Assembly: GCA_003233305.1 (NCBI GenBank)
Contig: QILI01000064.1
Span: 1-64,000 of the forward strand
From: Mizugakiibacter sp.
Lineage (GTDB): Bacteria; Pseudomonadota; Gammaproteobacteria; Xanthomonadales; Rhodanobacteraceae
Reading direction: 5' to 3'
Length of the DNA stretch: 64,000 nt
The notes beneath the pieces were generated by a model. It searched no databases. It was given only the letters and a program-made list of their open reading frames with translations, and was not told the origin of the DNA. Positions within the stretch are counted from its first letter, which is position 1. Every line of letters starts with the position of its first letter. Position numbers and translations under genes: made by a program. Below are positions 57,732-62,120 of this stretch, one piece after another.

Positions 57732-58088
57732 GTGTTCTCGCCCCTCGCTCCCCGCTTTATCCTGTTGCTGGCTGTGTTGATCTGGGTCGGTACTGCTTCT
57801 GCGTCCGTATTGCCGAAACTTGGCCATGTAGACATTTTGCAGCCCGCTACACCCATTGCAGTGCACCTTGCAGGTGAAAACTGTGTGCAGAGTTCCTACC
57901 CTGACTCCCCCCCTGTCGTATCCGCGTGCGATCAATGCACCGCTTGCGTGGGTGCCGGGGTGAGTTTACTTGCCAAGGGCTATACGCCTTTCATATTTCA
58001 AGTTCCGGCATTCATCACTTTTCGTGATAGCACACCTTTTATCCACGAGCATTTCAGCATACCGCTGCTACGACCGCCCTTGACATGA
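57732..58088 (+). CDS. small secreted Cys-containing protein in the CopL position (putative metal-binding; GTG start)
   Basis: Signal peptide-like N-terminus and SACDQCTACVGAG motif; directly upstream of copA. Confidence 0.6.
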   Translation: MFSPLAPRFILLLAVLIWVGTASASVLPKLGHVDILQPATPIAVHLAGENCVQSSYPDSPPVVSACDQCTACVGAGVSLLAKGYTPFIFQVPAFITFRDSTPFIHEHFSIPLLRPPLT

Positions 58089-58191
58089 CATGACATGGCC
58101 AGTCTAGCCTGGTTTCAGGCTTGGCAGGCTTGCATCGACTTGCCTACCGCATCGTTCTTTGCGGTGAATTTACCATATGTTGGAGCGTGTC

Positions 58192-59955
58192 ATGTCTCGT
58201 ATTTGTTTTCCTGAGTTGCCATCCCTTGCTCCCGATCCTTCGCGCCGACGTTTTGTTCGCGGACTGGCTCTGGGGGGCGTCATGTTTGGTCTAGCACCGT
58301 TGTCACGGTTGGCTAAGGCCTCGCCGGTTCAGGTGTCTCCGGCTGTACTGCGGGGTACGAACTTCAATCTGGATATTGCTGATACCCCGGTGAACTTCAC
58401 CGGGCGTCCAGCCATCGCCACTGCAATCAACGGCCAGGTACCTGCACCGATCCTGCATTGGCGCGAGGGTGATACAGTGACTATCAACGTCACCAATCGG
58501 ATGAACGTATCCGCCTCAATTCACTGGCACGGTATCCTTCTTCCTGCGGATATGGATGGGGTACCCGGTCTGAGTTATCCGGGTATCGCCCCAGGGGAAA
58601 CTTTCCGATACCGCTTCAAGGTGCAGCAAGCAGGTACTTATTGGTACCACAGCCATACCGGTTTTCAGGAACAGACCGGCATGTACGGAGCGATTGTGAT
58701 CGAACCGCGTGAGCCTGAGCAGTTTCCTGGCGACCGGGACTATGTGGTGCTGCTATCGGACTGGACCGATACCGATCCGGAAATGGTATTCGATAACCTC
58801 AAGAAGATGAGCAGCTACTACAGTCAAACCGAGCCCACTGTACCGGAACTGTTTGCAGCGGCGGGCCGGGAAGGTTTCGCCAAGGCCTGGCAAGAGCGAA
58901 TGAGGTGGAATCGCATGCGCATGAGTCCCCGCGATCTATCTGATGTGACCGGTTACACCTACACCTATCTTACCAACGGGATGCCCCCGGAAGGTAACTG
59001 GACAGGCTTGTTCAAGCGTGGCGAAAAAGTGCGGTTGCGGTTTATCAACGGGTCGGCAATGACCTATTTTGACGTACGTATTCCGGGTCTGAAGATGACC
59101 GTGGTAGCTGCGGATGGGCAGAATGTCGATCCGGTATCGATTGATGAGTTTCGTATTGCCGTAGCCGAGACCTTGGACGTGATTGTCAGTCCCAGTGACG
59201 ACCGTGCCTACACTATTTTTGCCCAGGCGATCGATCGCAGTGGCTACGCTGCAGGCACCCTGGCGCCGCGCGAGGGTCTGCGGGCGGAGACCCCGCCTAT
59301 GGATCCGGTACCCAGTCTGTCCATGGCGGATATGGGTATGGATATGTCCAAGATGGCGGGTATGACGGCGGCAGGTAAACAGGGCACGCAGCCGATGACC
59401 GGTATGAAAAGTATGGGGGGTAACCAGACCGTTCCGATCAACTTTCATTATCCCACTGAATACGGTCCTTCGAATACCAACCGTATTGAAGTGGCCTCGA
59501 CTGCATTGGACGATCCGGGTGCCGGGCTACGCCACAATGGCCGACGGGTACTGAACTACGCTGACCTGCATACTATCGGTGGCCCCATTGATCTGAGGGA
59601 ACCGGAACGGGCGATTGAGTTGCATCTGACCGGTAACATGGAACGCTATATGTGGTCGTTCAATGGGGTGCCGTATTCACAGGCCAAACCGATCCTGTTT
59701 CATTACGGGGAAAGACTGCGTATCATTCTGGTCAATGACACCATGATGAATCATCCGATTCATCTGCACGGCATGTGGAGCGAGATCGAAACTGCCGAAG
59801 GCCACTTCCAGGTGCGCAAGCACGTCGTTAACGTACGACCGGCGCAGCGTATTAGTTACCGGGTGAGTGCCGATGCCCGAGGTCGCTGGGCCTATCACTG
59901 CCATTTGCTCTATCACATGGACGTGGGCATGTTCCGCGCGGTGGTGGTGGCATGA
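58192..59955 (+). CDS. copA: CopA-family copper resistance multicopper oxidase (Tat signal)
   Basis: RRRFVRGLALGGVMFG Tat motif; SIHWHGILLP, YWYHSHTGFQEQTG, HPIHLHGMWSE, WAYHCHLLYHMDVGMFR; Met-rich MADMGMDMSKMAGM segment. Confidence 0.96.
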   Translation: MSRICFPELPSLAPDPSRRRFVRGLALGGVMFGLAPLSRLAKASPVQVSPAVLRGTNFNLDIADTPVNFTGRPAIATAINGQVPAPILHWREGDTVTINVTNRMNVSASIHWHGILLPADMDGVPGLSYPGIAPGETFRYRFKVQQAGTYWYHSHTGFQEQTGMYGAIVIEPREPEQFPGDRDYVVLLSDWTDTDPEMVFDNLKKMSSYYSQTEPTVPELFAAAGREGFAKAWQERMRWNRMRMSPRDLSDVTGYTYTYLTNGMPPEGNWTGLFKRGEKVRLRFINGSAMTYFDVRIPGLKMTVVAADGQNVDPVSIDEFRIAVAETLDVIVSPSDDRAYTIFAQAIDRSGYAAGTLAPREGLRAETPPMDPVPSLSMADMGMDMSKMAGMTAAGKQGTQPMTGMKSMGGNQTVPINFHYPTEYGPSNTNRIEVASTALDDPGAGLRHNGRRVLNYADLHTIGGPIDLREPERAIELHLTGNMERYMWSFNGVPYSQAKPILFHYGERLRIILVNDTMMNHPIHLHGMWSEIETAEGHFQVRKHVVNVRPAQRISYRVSADARGRWAYHCHLLYHMDVGMFRAVVVA

Positions 59956-61058
59956 TGAGCACAACGATGCGTCCGCTTTCATTTATCCGCCAAGTCTTAC
60001 GCCCGGCAACGCTCGGTCTGGCTCTGCTTGGAGTTTCTTCCCTGGTTACGGTTACGGCCCAGACCACCGCTCCGGTGCCCGCATCGGCGGCCAGTGTTTT
60101 GCCACCAAGTCATTTGGTGATGGGACAGAAAACCCAGAACCGGGATGTCCCCATCCACCAGGTCGATGCCAAGCCGTTGCATCATCGACCCGGATCTTTG
60201 CAACAGCAGTATGACCCAAGGTCCGGGGTGACACCAAAAATGCGGTCGAAAAACCGGTCTGGCAAGTACCAGAAGGCCATGGTGATGGGCCATGATATGC
60301 AGTGCATGACCATGGAACACGGTAAAGAGTCGTCCAAGACTCCCCCGGTCGGCAGTCTGCCCCGCAGCGATGGTGCGGCACCGGGTGATTACGCAAGCTA
60401 CGGTGTAACTCTGAAACTGGATGAGAACCCATTGCTGGCTAAGGTTCAGCTTGACACTCTTGAGACTGTCCATAGCAGCCGTGGAGTCAATACCCAGCAA
60501 TGGGATGGCCGGTTCTGGGTTGGTCATGATCTCAACAAGCTTTGGATTCGCAGTGAGGGTACCCGTAGCCAGAATCGTCTCGAAGAGGGTGATATCGAGG
60601 CGCTATGGGGCCATGCGATCAGTCCATTCTGGGATGGAATGGTCGGGATACGTCACGATCTCGGAATCGGGCCAGCTAGAAACTGGGCTGCGCTGGGTGT
60701 TCAAGGTATCGCACCGTACGAGTTCGAATTCGCAGCCACCCTGTATGCAGGCTCGGCGGGGCGTAGCGCTTTCCGGCTCATAACTTCACAGGACTGGCTG
60801 TTTACACAACGGCTGATACTCACCCCCGAGCTCGAGTTTAATGCTTATGGCCATGCCGATCCGCAGCGGGATCTGGGTGCGGGTATTGCCAATGTGTCAA
60901 TGAGTCTGCGCTTGCGCTATGAGTTCAGTCGCAAGTTTGCACCCTATATCGGGTATTCGTGGGTTCGTACCCTGGGTGGCACAGCTGGTATGGCGCGTGC
61001 GGCTGGAAGACCGGTTACAGATCGGTTGATTCTGGCCGGTGTCAGGGTTTGGTTCTGA
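59952..61058 (+). CDS. copB: copper resistance outer membrane protein CopB
   Basis: LDTLETVHSSRGVNTQQWDGRFWVGHDLNKLWIRSEG, FWDGMVGIRHDLGIGPARNWAALGVQGIAPYEFE; overlaps copA stop by 4 nt. Confidence 0.93.
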   Translation: MMSTTMRPLSFIRQVLRPATLGLALLGVSSLVTVTAQTTAPVPASAASVLPPSHLVMGQKTQNRDVPIHQVDAKPLHHRPGSLQQQYDPRSGVTPKMRSKNRSGKYQKAMVMGHDMQCMTMEHGKESSKTPPVGSLPRSDGAAPGDYASYGVTLKLDENPLLAKVQLDTLETVHSSRGVNTQQWDGRFWVGHDLNKLWIRSEGTRSQNRLEEGDIEALWGHAISPFWDGMVGIRHDLGIGPARNWAALGVQGIAPYEFEFAATLYAGSAGRSAFRLITSQDWLFTQRLILTPELEFNAYGHADPQRDLGAGIANVSMSLRLRYEFSRKFAPYIGYSWVRTLGGTAGMARAAGRPVTDRLILAGVRVWF

Positions 61059-61070
61059 GGGAGGGGTGCT

Positions 61071-62120
61071 ATGAAGTTATATAAAAAAATTGTTCTTGCC
61101 AGTGGCTCTGTACTACTTCTTGGGGTAATCGGTGCCACAATTTTCATTGAGTCGGGGGTTTACAACATCGGTGCTGATGACCCGCATTGGCCGGTTACCT
61201 ACATGGTCCTGGAGAGGTTGCGTAATCGTTCTGTAGCAGTACACAGTGCCGACCTAAAGGTGCCGGATCTTAATAACCCACAACGCATTTTACGTGGGGC
61301 CGGGCAATACGCAGCCATGTGCACGAGCTGTCATCTGGCTCCCGGTATATCCAGTTCGGAGATCCGCCCCGGGCTTTATCCACAGCCCCCAATTCTCGCC
61401 CAAACAAAAATTGGTCCACGTGAAGCCTTTTGGGCCATTAAACACGGCATCAAGTTAAGTGCCATGCCGGCCTGGGGTTTCAACCATAACGATGTCACTA
61501 TCTGGGACATGGTGGCCTTCATTGAGAAGCTGCCAGGTATGACTCCGGCGGAATACCAGGCTATTGTGGCCAAAGCCCCACCGGATGAGGAGATGGCTTC
61601 GGGGCACGGTCACGCTGAGAAAAAAAGCACTCATCCCCATTCAGGTACGGCATCACCTGCTGGTAAAGAGATGCCGAAAGAGCATGACCATCCGGTACAG
61701 AAGACTGGATCATCCATGGCTGGGAAAGGGGGCCGACTCGTCAAGGCGGAAAATATGGCGGATGCTTTCCAGCAGGCACTGCAGAACGGCCATCGTAACA
61801 AGGTGATTGCCATGTTGGCATCGGATGTCCGGGTGACCGAGGGCGGTAAGGAGCAGGTCTCTCGGACTGCCTATGTCGAACATCATATGGGTGCCGATAT
61901 GCGTTTTCTGGAACACGCAAAGATACGGCTGCTGAAACGCCAAGCGCAGTTGCAGGGAGATCGTGCTGTGGTTAGCAGCGTACGTGAGCTGCGCACCACG
62001 GTTCGTGGCAAACCACAAGTCCTACTCAGTCAGGAAACACTGACTATGAAGCAGAGTGATGCTGGTTGGCACATTGTTGCAATTAGCTGGAGTTCCAAAC
62101 CGGTTTCCAACACCGAGTAA
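61071..62120 (+). CDS. membrane-anchored cytochrome c (CTSCH) fused through a His-rich linker to an NTF2/SnoaL-like domain
   Basis: N-terminal TM; GAGQYAAMCTSCHLAPG heme motif; HGHAEKKSTHPHSG...EHDHP linker; C-terminal AENMADAFQQALQNGHRNKVIAMLASDVRVTEGG...WHIVAISWSS. Confidence 0.82.
   Translation: MKLYKKIVLASGSVLLLGVIGATIFIESGVYNIGADDPHWPVTYMVLERLRNRSVAVHSADLKVPDLNNPQRILRGAGQYAAMCTSCHLAPGISSSEIRPGLYPQPPILAQTKIGPREAFWAIKHGIKLSAMPAWGFNHNDVTIWDMVAFIEKLPGMTPAEYQAIVAKAPPDEEMASGHGHAEKKSTHPHSGTASPAGKEMPKEHDHPVQKTGSSMAGKGGRLVKAENMADAFQQALQNGHRNKVIAMLASDVRVTEGGKEQVSRTAYVEHHMGADMRFLEHAKIRLLKRQAQLQGDRAVVSSVRELRTTVRGKPQVLLSQETLTMKQSDAGWHIVAISWSSKPVSNTE

Follow-up and report, generated by a model that had tools for sequence, protein, structure and literature searches.

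Near the end of the window, by which we mean the whole stretch of 64,000 nucleotides that was analysed, three genes follow one another on the + strand: copA, copB and a gene for a 349-residue protein in which a c-type cytochrome, a His-rich linker and an NTF2-like domain are joined. The features of the locus are the following.

57732..58088, + strand: small secreted Cys-containing ORF of 118 aa upstream of copA (assigned by position only)
58177..59955, + strand: copA, CopA-type periplasmic multicopper oxidase with a Tat-type signal (TIGR01480, 871.5 bits, cut-off 479)
59952..61058, + strand: copB, outer-membrane copper resistance protein B (PF05275, 253 bits)
61071..62120, + strand: copM-like gene, fusion of c-type cytochrome, His-rich linker and NTF2-like (DUF4440) domain, 349 aa
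61074..61151, + strand: N-terminal membrane anchor helix, residues 2-27 approximately (predicted helix, sequence)
61287..61523, + strand: cytochrome c domain, residues 73-151 (PF13442, E=1.3e-12)
61605..61721, + strand: disordered His-rich linker, residues 179-217 (pLDDT <50)
61749..62105, + strand: NTF2-like domain, residues 227-345 approximately (PF14534, match to a profile of fused tails, predicted structure, conservation)

At 61071-62120 the reading frame represents a genuine gene, with an ATG start preceded by a GGAGG-like ribosome site. Only 12 nt separate this ATG from the stop codon of copB, and copB itself starts on the stop of copA (ATGA overlap), so that the close same-strand succession described in the first-pass annotation is confirmed, the identities of the two upstream genes being secured by the TIGR01480 and PF05275 matches. 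The Tat-type signal of the copA product also exceeds the cut-off of TIGR01409 (17.5 bits).

The 118-aa ORF occupies the place that copL has in Xanthomonas. It has no Pfam or NCBIfam match and no BLAST similarity to Xanthomonas CopL, and its assignment as CopL is thus unsupported. On the other side, 315 nt past position 62120, a prolyl oligopeptidase gene (PF02897, 62436-64000) begins on the same strand and runs off the window; nothing marks it clearly as a member of the copper operon. Promoter and terminator scans returned sites no more frequently than in shuffled sequence. Some further components on which a system of this kind would draw, namely a DUF411 gene, a Cu-ATPase and CcmE, are encoded on other contigs of the same genome; the presence of CcmE means that cytochromes c can be made.

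Layout of the protein and spread of the fusion

The predicted structure has pLDDT values of 90 or more over most of the helix at residues 2-27, in agreement with the membrane anchor proposed from the sequence. The cytochrome domain scores 48 bits against PF13442 (Cytochrome_CBB3; cut-off 27) and contains a single CxxCH, the heme site CTSCH formed by C84, C87 and H88. The downstream methionine that had been picked out, M132 in the motif SAMPAWG, is invariant among 30 aligned fusions, and with this residue as the putative axial ligand the domain can be classed as a class I cytochrome c.

The linker had been described as rich in both His and Met. The first part of this description stands: of the 47 residues of the window linker, 6 are His (binomial p=0.004 relative to the rest of the protein), and in 43 out of 43 fusions the linker is richer in His than the remainder of the protein. 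The second part does not hold well for the window copy, whose linker has a modest Met content; the relatives have more Met.

For the C-terminal part, the suspected NTF2/DUF4440 character is borne out. Residues 231-335 match PF14534 (DUF4440) with E=4.5e-7 and 30.7 bits, above the cut-off of 25.2, and all 30 aligned fusion members match both this family and PF13442. When the C-terminal domain was modelled in isolation with AlphaFold, an NTF2 fold was obtained with a mean pLDDT of 91.4 and a pTM of 0.84. The best PDB match of this model is 3bb9 (TM of about 0.8, E 2.5e-10), and a profile comparison with 3bb9 gives E 5e-24. This closest solved relative, Sfri_1973 of Shewanella frigidimarina, annotated as a putative ketosteroid isomerase or orphan protein, is a single-domain protein, whereas the window protein is a multi-domain fusion. 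The fold and profile are shared with DUF4440/SnoaL_3 of the NTF2-like superfamily; that superfamily is broad, while the copper-linked clade discussed below is marked by a conserved Glu and a conserved His.

With the whole protein as query, 99 further loci were gathered, giving 100 together with the window. A cytochrome and an NTF2 domain in one frame are found at 43 of these, nearly all directly after copA-copB, and most of the non-fused loci have copA-copB followed by a cytochrome with a His-rich tail only. The fusion occurs mainly in Rhodanobacteraceae (Rhodanobacter, Dyella, Frateuria, Oleiagrimonas), and also in records of Lysobacter, Thermomonas, Nevskia and Solimonas. It is therefore a standard architecture in Rhodanobacteraceae and kin and not unique to the window, and the in-frame fusion at 43 loci rules out a gene-model artefact. 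No Pfam or NCBIfam model covers it as one unit.

Two variations were seen among the loci. At some of them (L110:8107-9528 and L117:4790-6181) a shorter multicopper oxidase of about 465-475 aa replaces CopA before the cytochrome, and there is no CopB. Single in-frame stops lie within or beside some copies of the cytochrome gene (L021:5968-6993, L004, L012), which may represent either assembly errors or decay.

A simple one-step history of the fusion has to be rejected. On the cytochrome tree, 17 changes between the fused and the non-fused state are needed, at least 7 of which are forced by well supported branches. Of the 128 cytochromes compared, 45 have no NTF2 tail, and the window's own genus is itself mixed, with some copies fused and others lacking any NTF2; the tail is thus not essential to the cytochrome's basic function. 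On the NTF2 tree the window falls inside a clade (support 97) whose 21 rows are all fused, and other fusions lie elsewhere. One fusion in this clade followed by repeated loss of the tail fits the data, with many forks left open by the short alignments. The scattered pattern means that the tail is an accessory that came and went. The window cytochrome itself sits on a long branch and is not closely grouped with its own genus, for which horizontal transfer or fast change may be responsible.

CopM and a copper-linked NTF2 subfamily

The published order of the Xanthomonas operon is copLABMGCDF, in which CopM is a cytochrome (PMC11651105). A passage in PMC10924375, citing earlier work, describes copM in Xanthomonas as required for full copper resistance and upregulated by copper. 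(The Synechocystis CopM is a different protein and is not meant here.) With the CopM of the Xanthomonas and Stenotrophomonas copLABMGCDF operons the window protein has in common the place right after copAB, the cytochrome domain, the N-terminal anchor and a His-rich tail. This tail is long in Xanthomonas CopM, which stops after it, whereas the window protein carries a further, fused NTF2 domain. The window cytochrome is 44% identical over 209 aa to the cytochrome of plasmid pXpT39.1. These comparisons support the view that the cytochrome half corresponds to CopM of copLABMGCDF. In the window, neither a copL match upstream nor copG, copC, copD and copF downstream were found, so the operon is reduced, with a CopM-type protein and not the full copLABMGCDF set.

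The NTF2 domain also has a counterpart in Xanthomonas. On plasmid pLMG930.1 of Xanthomonas euvesicatoria the genes run copL, copA, copB, cytochrome c, NTF2, DUF411 (copG), a four-helix protein, copC, copD and a copF-type ATPase, and the cluster of pXpT39.1 is similar but without the NTF2 gene; these arrangements agree with the published copLABMGCDF order. The tail of the window protein is 39% identical (E 2e-23) to the separate Xanthomonas NTF2-family protein (WP_012480215.1), whose N-terminus resembles a signal sequence and which contains a short His motif. This protein, encoded between the cytochrome and DUF411 genes, shares with the window domain the operon position and the positions of a Glu, a His and an Asp; it is, however, a separate secreted protein, and it has HxHW in the last strand where the window copy has AISW. 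The pLMG930.1 gene (L101:7707-8216), located between copM and copG, has no letter in the label copLABMGCDF, and the terms NTF2, nuclear transport and SnoaL do not appear in the available texts of PMC11651105 and PMC10924375 on the cop operons; nuclear transport is also absent from a third text that was searched.

To examine the surroundings of this domain, we searched 399 genomes of the order and 399 of the phylum with a profile built from the fused tails. Copper markers were then scored by HMM around the matches, and likewise in 20 control stretches taken from these genomes. Copper genes are nearby at 101 of the 105 loci with strong matches, compared to none of the 20 controls and one of the 6 weak-match paralogs; the loci are non-independent, since many of the genomes are related, but the pattern holds across several families and orders. 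The markers at the 105 strong-match loci are copA (75), a cytochrome (75), DUF411 (65), a P-type ATPase (61), copB (52), CopC (26) and CopD (26). The NTF2 domain is fused to the cytochrome at 35 loci, has a separate cytochrome nearby at 40, and is without one at the remaining 30, where copC-copD-NTF2-MerR-ATPase is a common order. Such clusters, with a stand-alone NTF2 gene and no cytochrome, are seen for example at L114:7507-7968, L216, L219 and L220. The strong matches at L203, L208, L209 and L211, some of them on long branches, have no copper marker within about 6 kb.

The residues of the domain follow the same division. Glu257, Tyr268, His272 and Asp276 are invariant in the 30 aligned fusions, and Glu257 and His272 are retained at 97-100% in the fused, separate and cytochrome-free copper members, while the weak paralogs mostly have Ala at these positions. 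The HxHW motif of the last strand, on the other hand, is found in separate members and paralogs but has been lost from the main clade of fusions, to which the window (AISW) belongs.

The link of this NTF2 subfamily to copper looks new here: we found nothing relevant in the open-access literature that ties DUF4440, nuclear transport factor 2 or SnoaL to copper. The subfamily appears to be an overlooked, general component of copper resistance. A more specific version of this statement is one to which we give about even chances, namely that a distinct NTF2/DUF4440 subfamily is an unrecognised and widespread periplasmic copper-resistance component in Pseudomonadota that holds copper or a copper complex in a Glu/His pocket and acts either alone beside CopC/CopD or joined to CopM.

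Possible roles of the fusion protein

Considering all results together, we judge it rather probable that the protein is the CopM-type cytochrome c of a copAB operon, joined at the C-terminus to an NTF2-fold protein and working in periplasmic electron transfer and copper buffering. The classification as such, which is drawn from sequence, fold and gene order, is very likely to be correct, while the detailed mechanism outlined here is tentative and may well have to be replaced.

In this mechanism the protein would be anchored in the inner membrane and face the periplasm. The His-rich linker could loosely bind and buffer surplus copper beside the heme, which in turn would shuttle electrons between the respiratory chain on one side and copper or the Cop proteins on the other, with the outcome that periplasmic copper is held as Cu(II), its less harmful form. 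The first-pass annotation suggested that the protein could couple Cu(I) oxidation by CopA to an electron acceptor, with the tail as a metal or substrate sensor. O2 is, however, reduced by CopA-type multicopper oxidases themselves, and the cytochrome is therefore not needed as their acceptor. The NTF2 domain would probably form a dimer, as is usual for this fold, and the conserved Glu and His outline a candidate pocket for copper or for a small ligand that carries it. The domain would be an optional accessory, which can be fused, separate or absent. Since it also exists as a separate secreted protein and in cytochrome-free clusters, it is unlikely to serve the cytochrome alone.

A mechanism by which the cytochrome CopM contributes to copper resistance has been lacking for years. 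In this respect the fusion is a pointer: two neighbouring genes of one operon are joined in one protein, and their products should accordingly work together. Attention is thereby drawn to the NTF2 subfamily represented by 3bb9, a likely copper protein with Glu257 and His272 as the residues of interest, and the role of CopM and its companion becomes directly testable.

We now consider the alternatives to the electron-transfer and buffering role. The electrons could flow the other way, the cytochrome donating them to copper proteins such as DUF411/CopG and so making Cu(I) for efflux. Of the 62 loci at which the gene following NTF2 was scored, 47 have DUF411 there, more than any other gene. The window's genome has a DUF411 gene elsewhere, and a passage of PMC10924375 cites CopG as an oxidoreductase with a possible role in cycling Cu(II) to Cu(I). 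The window, however, has no DUF411 gene after the cytochrome-NTF2 gene, and the direction of flow is not readable from sequence; we regard this option as unlikely.

Another option is that the NTF2 domain has enzymatic activity of the ketosteroid-isomerase/SnoaL type, with Glu257 as general base, the cytochrome as redox partner, and a quinone, a thiol or an organic copper ligand as examples of the substrate. In the alignment to ketosteroid isomerase the invariant Glu does fall on the position of Asp38, the catalytic residue of that enzyme, and two more invariant polar residues, His272 and Asp276, could contribute to the lining of a pocket. However, the match is weak and extends over only about 40 residues (E 0.0004-0.01), stopping near residue 47 of ketosteroid isomerase, in which Tyr14 and Asp99 make up the oxyanion hole. 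The neighbourhood, moreover, is concerned with metal handling throughout and suggests no substrate. An enzymatic function of this kind is thus rather improbable.

We give a similarly low probability to the NTF2 domain being only a dimerisation or hub module that clusters the cytochrome and binds no ligand. The association (hub) domains of CaMKII are among the closest folds, and NTF2 folds commonly oligomerise. But the near-invariance of Glu257 and His272 in the copper-linked members, set against the Ala that mostly replaces them in the weak paralogs, exceeds what a scaffold needs, and the domain also stands alone in clusters where there is no cytochrome to gather.

Finally, that an ordinary respiratory cytochrome stands beside copAB by chance is very improbable and was discarded as an explanation: the domain is of the common cbb3-subunit-III type, but the order copA-copB-cytochrome recurs with tight spacing at dozens of loci in genomes and plasmids, and the tail is His-rich (11% His) in the unfused copies too.
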